The position numbers and the translations under genes were made by a program. Below are positions 27,265-37,497 of a DNA stretch of 64,000 bases, in pieces. The stretch is from Myxococcales bacterium (lineage in GTDB: Bacteria > Myxococcota > Myxococcia > Myxococcales > Anaeromyxobacteraceae), in assembly GCA_021806645.1 (NCBI GenBank), contig JAJZQX010000001.1, positions 62,001-126,000 of the forward strand, in the 5' to 3' direction. A model generated the notes under the pieces. It was given only the letters and a program-made list of their open reading frames with translations. It was not told where the DNA came from and searched no databases. Each line of letters opens with the position of its first letter. Within the stretch, counting starts at the first letter, position 1.

Positions 27265-27744
27265 ATGACCAAGCACCTCGCCTACCGGAAGCCGCACATC
27301 GTGACCTCGGTCGTCGCGGTCATCGTGGACGGCGCCGATCGGGTCGTGCTCACCCGTCGCTGCGTGCCACCGTTCCTGGACCAGTGGGTCATGCCGGGCG
27401 GCAAGATCGGGCTCGGCGAGCCGATGCGGTCCGCGCTGCGCCGGGAGGTGCGCGAGGAGGTCGGGATCGACGTCGTGGTCGGCGAACTGATCGACACCTT
27501 CGAGCACGTCACGCCGGGCGCCGACAACGATCACCACGTCATCCTCTACTTCCGGTGCGGGCCCAGCCGCGCCGAGCTCACGCCCAACCCCGCCGAGGTG
27601 GCCGAGGCGCTCTGGGTCCCGCGCGGAGAGCTTGCCGGCTACGCCATGCCGGAGGGGACCCGCCACGTCCTCGCCGGGCTCTTCCCCGAGCTGGGCGCCA
27701 CCGGCCCGGCGGGGCCGGAGCGGACCGGGTGGAGGCCGCCGTGA
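27265..27744 (+). CDS. Nudix hydrolase
   Basis: A 159-residue hydrolase of the Nudix superfamily, cleaving nucleoside diphosphates linked to another group. The Nudix box is intact: GGKIGLGEP, then RREVREEVGI. The N-terminus reads IVTSVVAVIVDGADRVVLTRR, which recalls ADP-ribose or mismatched-nucleotide pyrophosphatases, but substrate cannot be read from this. The TGA stop overlaps the GTG start of the next gene in a GTGA arrangement, so the two are translationally coupled. The 136 bases before it show nothing notable. Confidence 0.9.
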   Translation: MTKHLAYRKPHIVTSVVAVIVDGADRVVLTRRCVPPFLDQWVMPGGKIGLGEPMRSALRREVREEVGIDVVVGELIDTFEHVTPGADNDHHVILYFRCGPSRAELTPNPAEVAEALWVPRGELAGYAMPEGTRHVLAGLFPELGATGPAGPERTGWRPP

Positions 27745-28898
27745 TCCAGATCCACGAGGTCGAGGTGAACCTCGACTACGCTCTGGGGAGCCACATCCAC
27801 TGCCTGGTGGCGCAGATTCCGGTGCGGCTTCGCGCCACCGAGCGGGGGCCCGCCCTGCGGGACCGCGAGGCGCAGTGGCGCACCCTGGCCTCGGTGCTGG
27901 AGTCGGTGGCAGAGGGGGAGCGCTTCCAGAAGCTCCACTTCCTCGCCTTCCCGGAGGCCGCGCTGCCCGCCGCGCGGCTCGACGACGTGCTCGGCATCGT
28001 GGCGGAGCGCTTCCGGCCCAACACCGTGACCATGTTCGGGCTGGAGCACGTCTCGCTGCGCGCCTACCGCGACACCCTGGAACGCTTCGGCGAGGACAAC
28101 CGGCTGGCCATCCCCGCGGTCGAGCACGACCTGGCGGCCGGGGCGCTCCCCGACATCCCGGTGAACTGGTGCTGCGTGGTGGTGAAGGAGGCGAGCGGCC
28201 GGTTGCGGGTGTTCTTCGAGGCCAAGACCCACCCCTTCCGCGCCGAGGAGTTCCTGGACAAGTCCGGGGACCTGTACCGGGGCCGGCACTTCTGGTGGTT
28301 CCGCGCCCGGCCCGCCTTCTTCCACTTCATGGTGCTGGTCTGCCTCGACTACCTGTACCGGGACCTCTACGGCTCCAACATCCGGCAGATCGTCGAATAC
28401 GCCGACCAGCAGTACTTCGCCGCAAGGCGGACCCTGGACGCGCTCTTCGTGCTGCAGTGCAACCCCAAGCCCGAGCACCGCGCCTACCGGGACGTGGTCG
28501 CCGGGTTCTACGGCGAGTACCTCGAGGACACGCCCGGCGTGAGGGACACCGTCACCGTCTTCGCCAACAGCTCCGGCGAGAGCGAGCTCGGCGAGCCCTG
28601 CCCGGGCGGCTTCGGCGTCTCCTCGGTGGTGCTGGGGGCCAGGCACCGGCTGGCCCGGGTGGCGGCGCCGGAGTTCTCCACCGACGATTTCCACGGCACG
28701 CCGGCCTGCCGGCTCCGCTTCGGGACCGCCACGCGGCTCTACTACTTCAACCTGCCGCTCCACCACGACCTCGACCCGCGCACCAGCCACCAGCCGCTCA
28801 AGGTGCACGCAGTGCTCCGGCCCGAGGGCGGTGGCTGGGTCCAGGCCGTCGGCGCGCCGCTCATGGCCGAGCTCTCCGAGCGGAGCGGCCGCGGCTAG
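27741..28898 (+). CDS. Divergent nitrilase-superfamily-like protein
   Basis: A 385-residue protein I do not recognise by name. Its sequence order suggests the carbon-nitrogen hydrolase fold. A strand ending in LHFLAFPEAALP gives Glu72, AKTHPFRAEE gives Lys162, and FMVLVCLDYLYRDLYG gives Cys201. These match the Glu-Lys-Cys triad and its spacing in nitrilases and amidases. The C-terminal 120 residues form an extra part without a recognised domain. The start is GTG 27741, overlapping the Nudix stop. No signal peptide is visible. The substrate is unknown; coupling to a Nudix and a GalT-like gene suggests nucleotide or nucleotide-sugar work. The family call is inference. Confidence 0.6.
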   Translation: MIQIHEVEVNLDYALGSHIHCLVAQIPVRLRATERGPALRDREAQWRTLASVLESVAEGERFQKLHFLAFPEAALPAARLDDVLGIVAERFRPNTVTMFGLEHVSLRAYRDTLERFGEDNRLAIPAVEHDLAAGALPDIPVNWCCVVVKEASGRLRVFFEAKTHPFRAEEFLDKSGDLYRGRHFWWFRARPAFFHFMVLVCLDYLYRDLYGSNIRQIVEYADQQYFAARRTLDALFVLQCNPKPEHRAYRDVVAGFYGEYLEDTPGVRDTVTVFANSSGESELGEPCPGGFGVSSVVLGARHRLARVAAPEFSTDDFHGTPACRLRFGTATRLYYFNLPLHHDLDPRTSHQPLKVHAVLRPEGGGWVQAVGAPLMAELSERSGRG

Positions 28899-28983
28899 CC
28901 CGAACCCCCGCCGGCCCGTCGGCTCGCCCTCTTTCGCGAACTGAGAAGCCGTGCGAAGAAGTTGGTGCACCCTGGAGGCGTCG

Positions 28984-30021
28984 ATGGAACTGGTCGCGAT
29001 CACCGAGAAGGCAACCCTCATCGATCCGTCGGGCCAGCTCACCGAGCAGGCGATCGAGCACCGCACCGACCCGCTCACCGGGCAGGTCGCCTCCGTCAAC
29101 CTGGCGCTCGGCGAGAAGGCCCGGGCCTTCCTCGGGGTGGCCGACCTGGCGCTTCTCGAGGACCTGCAGGAGAAGAGCCGCGCCGGCTGCCCGTTCTGCG
29201 GCGCGCCTGAGAAGGGCACCCGCTACGACCCGGGCTTCGCGCCCGAGGGGCAGCTCCGCTTCGGCGGCGCGCTGGCCATGCCGAACCTCTTCTCGAAGTG
29301 CGCCCGCGACTCGGTGGTGGTCCTCGACGTGGCCAACCACGTGCTCCTTCCCTCCCGCATCGGCGCGCCGGCGCTGGGCAACGGGATCCGCGCCGCGGTG
29401 GAGCTGGTGCGGCGGGGCCGGGCCGCCGAGCCGCGCAACGTCCACCACCTGGTGGGCATGAACTTCCTGCCGCCCGGGGGCTCCAGCGTGCCCCACCCGC
29501 ACTTCCAGGTGCACGTGCGTGGCGTGCCGTACTCGGGCGTGGCGCGCCTGCTGGAGCGGAGCGCCGAGTGGCGCCGCCGGACCGGCCGTGACTTCTGGAG
29601 CACGCTGGTCGAGTCGGAGCGGGCGGCGGGGGTGCGCTACCTGGGGCGCGACGGTCCGGTCGAGTGGCTGGCGGCCTTCGCGCCGTCGCACCAGCGGGAG
29701 GTGTGGGGGATGGTCCCCGGGACCGGCAGCCTGGCCGAGCTCGACGAGGCCGGGGTGGACGGGCTGGCGGCCGGGCTCTCCAGGGTGTTCTCCTACTACG
29801 AGGAGGTCGGTGCCCACCCGTTCACGCTGGCCTTCCTCTCCAGCGCAGAGCCCGGGCGCGGCGGCGAGTACGCCCTGCAGGTCCGAGCCTGTTCGCGTCC
29901 GCCCTTGAAGCCGCTCTACGTCAACTACGAGACCTGGTTCGGGCCGATGTTCGCCGGCGACGAGGTGCACACCGAGGCCCCGGAGACCTACGCCGCGGCG
30001 CTCCGCGCCCGGTGGCGCTGA
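28984..30021 (+). CDS. GalT-like HIT-superfamily nucleotidyltransferase
   Basis: A 345-residue relative of galactose-1-phosphate uridylyltransferase. The active-site motif PHPHFQ (His171-Pro-His173, Gln175) has the GalT HPH-x-Q form, which marks transferases rather than HIT hydrolases. A CPFC pair at 69 and 72 could bind zinc. The adjoining part, SCVPHPH-like NFLPPGGSSVPHPH, is family-typical, but the rest diverges from true GalT. ATG 28984 was preferred over GTG 28951 because a GGAGG site lies just upstream. It probably shares a transcript with the Nudix and nitrilase-like genes. The substrate is unknown. Confidence 0.75.
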   Translation: MELVAITEKATLIDPSGQLTEQAIEHRTDPLTGQVASVNLALGEKARAFLGVADLALLEDLQEKSRAGCPFCGAPEKGTRYDPGFAPEGQLRFGGALAMPNLFSKCARDSVVVLDVANHVLLPSRIGAPALGNGIRAAVELVRRGRAAEPRNVHHLVGMNFLPPGGSSVPHPHFQVHVRGVPYSGVARLLERSAEWRRRTGRDFWSTLVESERAAGVRYLGRDGPVEWLAAFAPSHQREVWGMVPGTGSLAELDEAGVDGLAAGLSRVFSYYEEVGAHPFTLAFLSSAEPGRGGEYALQVRACSRPPLKPLYVNYETWFGPMFAGDEVHTEAPETYAAALRARWR

Positions 30022-30103: not shown

Positions 30104-30397
30104 ATGCGCGAGGCAAGCAGCGACGAGGGCGTGCGGGACCAGTCGATCGCCAGGGTGGCGCGCCGGGCCGAGGAGGCGCGCACGCTGGTCAAGGCCGCGA
30201 AGGACCTGGACGGCCTGTGCCGGGTCCTGAACACGCACGGGGCGTTCTTGCCGATGGCCGAGATGTTCGGCCTGCCGAAGTTCGGGAGCGCGCCGGCCGT
30301 CACCAGGGGGCTCTGGAGCTGGGACGACCGGCGGGCCATCCGGATGCAGACCGACGGGGACGGCTTCGAGGCCTTCGTCATCGGGCCCAGGCCGTAG
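30104..30397 (+). CDS. Small hypothetical protein
   Basis: A 97-residue soluble protein with no family I recognise. The N-terminal half is charged and helical (RVARRAEEARTLVKAAKDL). The second half has a compact segment around FLPMAEMFGLPKFG and WSWDDRRAIRM. A GGAGGAC ribosome site lies upstream of ATG 30104, and codon use matches its neighbours, which supports a real gene. It sits between the GalT-like gene and aspS and ends just before a GC-rich hairpin. No function is proposed. Confidence 0.6.
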   Translation: MREASSDEGVRDQSIARVARRAEEARTLVKAAKDLDGLCRVLNTHGAFLPMAEMFGLPKFGSAPAVTRGLWSWDDRRAIRMQTDGDGFEAFVIGPRP

Positions 30398-36817: not shown

Positions 36818-37246
36818 TCAGACCTCGCCGAGCGTCGCCAGGAACTCGGCAGCGCTGACCACCAGGACGCCCGCGAAGCTGCCGACGGCGAGCACCGCCG
36901 TGTCGCCGCTCACGATGATCCGGGCGCCAGCGGCCAGTGCCGTTGCGAAGAGCACGTCGTCGTCGGGGTCCTCCCTGACGACGCGCACTTCGCCGAGCAG
37001 ATCGGCCGGCACCATGGTGGCGAGGGTCGCCAGCTTGGCGAGCACCTGTCGGGCCTGCGTCTCGCGCCCCTTCAGCCGCTTCTGGATGCGCGGCAGGTCG
37101 AGGATGCGGCGGCACTCGACGGCGATGGCCGGTGTCCACGCCAGCTCGTAGCGGAGCCCGGCCCCCCTTAGGACGGCCGCCGGCACACCGGCCCGGTTGA
37201 GGATGCCGCTCACCACCACGTTCGTGTCGATGACGGCGCGGGTCAC
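36818..37246 (-). CDS. PIN-domain toxin of a toxin-antitoxin pair
   Basis: A 142-residue PIN-domain ribonuclease of the TIGR00305-type putative toxins. The acidic residues are in place: Asp7 (VIDTN), Glu44 (AVECRRI), Asp95-97 (EDPDDDVLFATAL) and Asp115 (IVSGD). The start is GTG 37246, overlapping the stop of the upstream antitoxin in a GTGA arrangement. A small antitoxin followed by a PIN toxin is the usual VapBC order. RNA cleavage is the family's activity; the target is unknown. No partner elsewhere in the window resembles it. Confidence 0.87.
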   Translation of the reverse strand: MTRAVIDTNVVVSGILNRAGVPAAVLRGAGLRYELAWTPAIAVECRRILDLPRIQKRLKGRETQARQVLAKLATLATMVPADLLGEVRVVREDPDDDVLFATALAAGARIIVSGDTAVLAVGSFAGVLVVSAAEFLATLGEV

Positions 37247-37497
37247 CGGCGGCGGCTCCGCACCTCGCGCTTCGCCTCTGCGGCCAGCTCGGCCGCCTCC
37301 TCGTCGGTCATGTCACCGCCTGAGCTGGCCGCGTCGAGCAGCCGCGCCAGGTCTACGACCGCCTGCCGCTTGCGGGCCGCGGCGATCGCCAGGTCGCGCA
37401 GCCAGGCGGACACCGACCCGCCCGGCGCCATGCGCTTCAGCAGGTCCCGGTCGGCCCTGGTGACGCGGACCGGGATGATGACGTCCTTGGCAGCCAT
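37243..37497 (-). CDS. Ribbon-helix-helix antitoxin
   Basis: An 84-residue protein. The first 45 residues fit a ribbon-helix-helix DNA-binding fold: IIPVRVTRADRDLLKRMA as strand and helix 1, GGSVSAWLRDLAIAAARKR as helix 2. The C-terminal half is acidic and helical (MTDEEAAELAAEAKREV) and would wrap the toxin. ATG 37497 follows a predicted -10 element by only 7 bases. It is the first gene of the pair and likely represses its own promoter, which contains an inverted repeat. Confidence 0.75.
   Translation of the reverse strand: MAAKDVIIPVRVTRADRDLLKRMAPGGSVSAWLRDLAIAAARKRQAVVDLARLLDAASSGGDMTDEEAAELAAEAKREVRSRRR

Follow-up and report, generated by a model that had tools for sequence, protein, structure and literature searches.

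Three genes adjoin on one strand of a myxobacterial genome, and the question they raise is whether they form one pathway, a smaller functional unit, or merely neighbours. The 64,000-nucleotide stretch of DNA analysed here (the window) belongs to genome G000 (Myxococcota, Anaeromyxobacteraceae; 4.14 Mb in 33 contigs). In it, recJ on one side and a 97-aa ORF and aspS on the other flank genes for a Nudix hydrolase, a nitrilase-like protein (nit) and a GalT-like protein; the downstream gene is one that we take to be aspS from our own reading of the sequence. An earlier note had located these three ORFs, and ORF reading of the window confirmed their places. The features are as follows.

27265–27744, plus strand: Nudix hydrolase gene, MutT/RppH-like, 159 aa (PF00293, E 2.1e-20; model most similar to BdRppH and MutT2)
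27400–27468, plus strand: Nudix box, residues 46–68, a complete GX5EX7REUXEEXGU box
27741–27744, plus strand: GTGA overlap of the Nudix stop codon and the nit start codon (direct reading)
27741–28898, plus strand: nit, predicted stand-alone nitrilase-superfamily hydrolase, 385 aa, GTG start (structure, Foldseek and the PADLOC LmuA model)
27954–27956, plus strand: codon of the predicted catalytic Glu72 (invariant in 54/54 relatives)
28224–28226, plus strand: codon of the predicted catalytic Lys162 (invariant in 54/54 relatives)
28341–28343, plus strand: codon of the predicted nucleophile Cys201 (invariant in 54/54 relatives)
28984–30021, plus strand: GalT-like (HPHFQ) gene, judged to lie outside the module, its start set at ATG 28984 (profile match to GalT 6k5z, E 1.6e-4)

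The overlap between the first two genes is as previously described, with bases 27741–27744 common to both. We read the locus as a module of two genes instead of three: a Nudix hydrolase of the MutT/RppH type that appears translationally coupled to a nitrilase-fold hydrolase, an identification of enzymes and module to which we assign a probability of about 0.9. Two further observations in the window may be recorded. The 97-aa ORF (30104–30397), in the interval between the GalT-like gene and aspS, had no Pfam or NCBIfam match, and at 36818–37497 two short minus-strand ORFs resemble, by eye only, a PIN-domain toxin and its antitoxin.

The proposal that Nudix, nitrilase and GalT-like enzymes constitute one nucleotide-sugar pathway draws on the fact that the three genes adjoin in this one genome. 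The HPH-x-Q motif reported for the third ORF is indeed present as HPHFQ, and HPHFQ or HPHLQ occurs in all four aligned GalT-like members. Their profile matched GalT 6k5z (E 1.6e-4), none of the four matched a Pfam family, and the likeness to GalT is thus a weak one. A GalT-like gene (E<=1e-3) was found in 11 of the 24 family genomes, in varying neighbourhoods. Nine family genomes other than the window's own, and leaving out G007, which is without nit, hold both nit and the GalT-like gene, and in 9/9 the two lie on separate contigs, which by itself is weak evidence given that most of these genomes are drafts. Of the 14 nit genomes in the family besides the window's own, five gave no GalT-like match and nine gave a match on another contig. 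Nor did the flanks read at the other nit loci show a GalT-like gene. Since the gene is found on other contigs and is absent from these flanks, the trio is best regarded as a local accident, a common pathway of the three enzymes is highly improbable, and the trio with the GalT-like gene was rejected. Of the gene order whose conservation was at issue in the earlier note, the three-gene arrangement was not conserved, while the order of Nudix and nit is kept far outside Myxococcota.

The nitrilase assignment of the second protein was upheld by its predicted structure. The AlphaFold2 model (13 sequences; pLDDT 75.9, pTM 0.84) has pLDDT <50 at residues 202–207, directly past Cys201. A Foldseek search of the PDB with this model gave seven matches at E<=1e-3, all of them amidases or formamidases of the nitrilase superfamily, and the next-best match had E 0.05. 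Structural alignment with VIA-align related the model to nitrilase 4 (6i00; Z 14.5, 219 residues, 3.4 A), NAD+ synthetase (Z 14.2, 247 residues, 4.1 A) and cyanide dihydratase (Z 14.1, 222 residues, 3.5 A). The Glu72-Lys162-Cys201 order proposed as a catalytic triad proved invariant in the alignments of 17/17 members and 54/54 relatives, which argues that it is not a chance reading; altogether 73 residues are invariant across the 54 sequences, including E169, E170, N241-P-K-P244 and H246.

Sequence profiles gave a different picture. None of the 17 members matched Pfam CN_hydrolase (PF00795) even at E<=10, so that of the two signs of a nitrilase considered in the earlier note the Pfam match failed to appear and the fold in a predicted structure was found. 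Other Pfam matches among the 17 members were limited to three chance-level families in one member each (best E 0.12), and NCBIfam gave lnt (apolipoprotein N-acyltransferase) alone, in 3/17 members with best E 0.015. PDB searches by single sequence or profile returned no match for nit, and PHROGs none for the four proteins searched. The protein shares its predicted fold and Glu-Lys-Cys order with the Geobacillus pallidus amidase 4gyl, the aliphatic amidase 2uxy and the formamidases 2e2k and 5g3p, but differs from these in having no detectable sequence-family match and in its conserved NPKPxH, HPF and GFYGEYL blocks, which mark a separate family. The failure of the PF00795 profile is put down to the divergence of the family and is outweighed by fold and triad: on model and alignment, nit is a predicted nitrilase-superfamily hydrolase with the alpha-beta-beta-alpha fold and a Glu-Lys-Cys triad.

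The folds nearest to the predicted Nudix fold in Foldseek, BdRppH and MutT2, bind NTP-type ligands. The likeness is one of nearest solved folds, whereas sequence identity is 26–29% only and the Nudix protein belongs to an orthologue group of its own, linked to nit. A proline stands 16 residues past the Nudix box in 37 of 42 rows, and five deep-branch rows are without it. In a passage on Nudix enzymes this proline is given as a trait of ADP-ribose pyrophosphatases (PMC6856373). The Nudix protein may be such an enzyme, with the five deep-branch rows and the RppH/MutT-like nearest folds as reasons for caution; the hints at a substrate are accordingly mixed. Of the 42 Nudix-nit gene pairs measured, 20 overlap.

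How the pair is distributed was analysed by genome searches covering two phyla. Of 60 genomes searched around the window, its own among them, 15 contain nit, and these all belong to one family; a profile search of the window's phylum likewise gave 15/195. A Nudix orthologue (E<=1e-25) is present in six of the 24 family genomes, beside nit in each of the six, and nine of the 15 nit genomes have nit without Nudix. Beyond Nudix, no conserved neighbour of nit was seen in this family, where nit sits away from arg genes. In the window's own genome, ArgG belongs to another type (28% identity); its gene is on a different contig, and the 12 kb read there contained neither argH nor nit.

The principal home of the pair was found elsewhere. 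In genome G195, a MAG titled Deltaproteobacteria that is absent from the genome set of the window's phylum, one strand carries argB, argD, argF, argG, nudix, nit and argH in this order (locus L006), with one unnamed ORF separating argB and argD; argG and argH were named by Pfam, and argB, argD and argF are presumed from our own reading. A profile search of the phylum of G195 found nit in 13/395 genomes, one of which, G495, gave a 40-bit partial match only. Within the order to which G195 belongs, nit is present in 88 of 141 genomes, and its locus was obtained for all 88. The order argG-nudix-nit-argH was found in 69 of these, which have a common ancestor and are therefore not independent counts. 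In three more, nudix-nit-argH is seen and the sequence on the argG side runs out at a contig end or close to one; two show argF-argG-nudix-nit without argH in view, and four have nit-argH without a Nudix match, one at a contig edge. The remaining ten hold nudix-nit with no arg gene in view (two with short flanks, and L242 with a short downstream flank), the two genes being together in all ten. Thus argG and/or argH stand beside the unit in 78/88 genomes, and Nudix adjoins nit in 84/88, which bears out, in another order, the coupling of the two genes first noticed in the window. Two loci were left out of the arg-locus counts, the partial L098 and L099, a second nit copy in G502 (L099:1495-2619). 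This copy is 46% identical, has no Nudix match and lies alongside a transposase-like ORF; G502 also carries an argG-linked Nudix-nit pair.

Relatives without the pair served as a control. An argG of this type was obtained from 17 of 20 genomes of the same order that have no nit; argH followed argG directly in 11 of the 17 (of the other six loci, two are interrupted by masked bases or the end of a contig), and neither Nudix nor nit was in view in any of the 17. As the full order is kept in 69/88 genomes and relatives lacking the pair mostly have argG next to argH, the Nudix-nit pair, judged on gene order, behaves as a cassette with the arginine operon as its main home and with other places in the family of the window. 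The tree of nit, drawn from 37 rows that are a chosen subset of the 54 and with its root unknown, unites the rows from Anaeromyxobacteraceae in a single starred group (99/97), groups the six rows with an adjacent Nudix together as well (96/92), and has argG-linked rows on both sides of the drawn root. This topology fits, but does not prove, an argG-linked ancestor, a single move to the family of the window and a subsequent loss of Nudix.

In Geobacter sulfurreducens, two genes that we take to be GSU0154 and GSU0155 presumably lie in the same place, between argG and argH. Literature searches found no paper tying argG or argH to Nudix in Geobacter or treating GSU0154/GSU0155, none on a nitrilase and Nudix in the context of arginine biosynthesis or its gene neighbourhood, and none joining metabolite repair, nitrilase, Nudix and deaminated glutathione.

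What the pair does in this operon may be approached through its chemistry. In a small metabolite, Cys201 would attack a C-N bond of the amide or ureido kind, or one like it, and the covalent intermediate so formed would be opened by water; the Nudix enzyme would cleave a nucleoside-phosphate compound from the same metabolic corner. The role so described would be house-cleaning, or damage control, in the chemistry surrounding arginine, citrulline or argininosuccinate. ArgG acts via adenylylated citrulline, releasing AMP and pyrophosphate, and the Nudix and nitrilase superfamilies both supply metabolite-repair enzymes. Damage control is favoured because both superfamilies supply such enzymes and because the pair is placed beside the gene for ArgG, an enzyme that forms an adenylylated intermediate. 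Counting against it, the window's family has nine nit genomes of 15 without Nudix, and arg genes are not nearby. The shared ancestry of the 69 genomes, the other type of ArgG in the window's genome and the mixed hints at a Nudix substrate also weaken the case. As the pair lies away from arg genes in the lineage of the window, its function cannot depend on co-transcription with them. The whole reading, a Nudix-nit pair in metabolite damage control around arginine chemistry, is tentative and is given a probability of about 0.4. A nucleotide-linked substrate or a repair role, which the earlier note had suggested for the three genes together, is possible for the pair.

The same surroundings could be read more directly, with nit as a ureido or citrulline hydrolase (N-carbamoyl hydrolase) trimming citrulline or carbamoylated amino acids and the Nudix enzyme as an unrelated house-cleaner. 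The location of nit between argG, whose product uses citrulline, and argH speaks for this, as does the use of the same triad by nitrilase-superfamily carbamylases. Yet hydrolysis of citrulline would work against arginine synthesis, and a mere passenger would not explain a Nudix gene that adjoins nit in 84/88 genomes and is present in 10/10 relocated cases. We therefore consider a ureido hydrolase with an unrelated neighbour distinctly unlikely.

Common descent might also account for the location without any functional tie to arginine, if the pair was simply inherited there after a single entry into the arg operon. That the pair is elsewhere in 10/88 genomes and in the window's family too, and that argG and argH adjoin in relatives without it, agrees with such hitch-hiking. 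The arrangement persists, however, where ArgG proteins have diverged to about 75% identity, also in the five deeper-branching loci outside the order (L093-L097), which have the same argG-nudix-nit-argH order and ArgG 73–76% identical to that of L006. On balance, hitch-hiking seems rather unlikely, although it is the least improbable of the alternatives weighed here, and damage control around arginine chemistry is retained as the preferred reading.

The nitrilase is in addition related to effector domains of phage defence. The PADLOC LmuA model PDLC03850 matched 17/17 nit members (best E 2.1e-24), and the RT_UG5-nitrilase model PDLC03780 matched 2/17, weakly (best E 4.8e-4). The match of the window's nit to PDLC03850 (E 4e-19) takes in residues 4–299 of the protein and covers model positions 4–303 of 604, about half, and with the match ending at 303 and a protein of 385 aa the C-terminal half of LmuA is absent. 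Among the neighbours of nit in the window (recJ, Nudix, the GalT-like gene, the 97-aa ORF and the aspS-like gene) there is no SMC-like LmuB. As a member of Lamassu, nit was rejected on account of the missing LmuA C-terminal half and LmuB neighbour.

A separate LmuA match occurs in two genomes of the window's family, G020 and G015. The former has a Lamassu-type locus (L076:1399-6551) with an LmuA of 569 aa, a 194-aa ORF and an SMC protein of 977 aa that matches LmuB (E 3.2e-39); the latter also has a Lamassu-type locus (L075/L151), genes having been read in L076 alone. In the phylum of G195, PDLC03850 matched 14/395 genomes, namely 12 nit genomes, G495 and G237. G495 encodes a 240-aa LmuA-like nitrilase ORF (L148:5905-6627; 212 bits to PDLC03850) with HsdR-like and Fic-like genes either side and no LmuB seen on the contig. 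The G237 protein (L190:2539-4299) is 586 aa long and nitrilase-like in its N-terminal half (FPE...K...C); it is possibly a further stand-alone architecture, with no SMC gene among the ORFs listed.

One may ask, then, whether nit is itself a defence or toxic enzyme, a stand-alone effector domain of the Lamassu (LmuA) or RT-nitrilase kind with Nudix as its partner or antidote. Matches to the LmuA model in all 17 members and to the RT_UG5-nitrilase model in two are in line with this, as is the genuine Lamassu locus in the same family, where the PE, K, C and NPKP positions of L076 LmuA coincide with those of nit in the alignment. C-N hydrolases are listed among LmuA N-terminal effector domains in a passage of a review (PMC10586767). 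The likeness to LmuA is confined to the N-terminal nitrilase domain, however; nit stands alone, covers half of the 604-position model only, is paired with Nudix, is without an LmuB neighbour in the window and lies mostly in a metabolic operon, its main home being biosynthetic. Scored directly, the nit profile gave L076 LmuA just 9.4 bits with filters off and no match under default filters. From the RT-nitrilase (DRT) proteins, nit differs in having no reverse transcriptase domain. Furthermore, 72,556 plasmids held no match to nit, the L006 nit or L076 LmuA, and no nit relative was found in viral contigs. A defence or toxic role is accordingly distinctly unlikely. Our literature search found no paper joining Lamassu and LmuA with a nitrilase, Lamassu with an amidase effector, or ABC-3C with a nitrilase.

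One may speculate instead that the Lamassu and RT-nitrilase effector domains arose from, or alongside, a housekeeping relative, namely the argG-nudix-nit-argH module, with nit taking an amide or amine off a nucleotide-linked metabolite and Nudix clearing the remains. We regard this as unlikely, if slightly less so than a defence role; if true, the substrate of nit would show what the Lamassu and RT-nitrilase effectors destroy.

The true unit, of more interest than the trio, is a Nudix-nitrilase cassette of the arginine operon that has gone unannotated and has relatives among the effector domains of phage defence. Because the LmuA model PDLC03850 matches this arginine-operon protein, false Lamassu calls would result where LmuB is not required, and LmuA-only Lamassu counts would be inflated in these bacteria. 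In a 2026 report on the phage-defence protein DRT1, its nitrilase is a cysteine enzyme whose target is posed as a question, with ATP, GTP or NAD+ guessed (PMC13275509). As a stand-alone protein with a Nudix partner and a defined operon, nit may be a tractable test of that question. The finding also points to an enzyme pair, so far unannotated, within one of the best-known biosynthetic operons.
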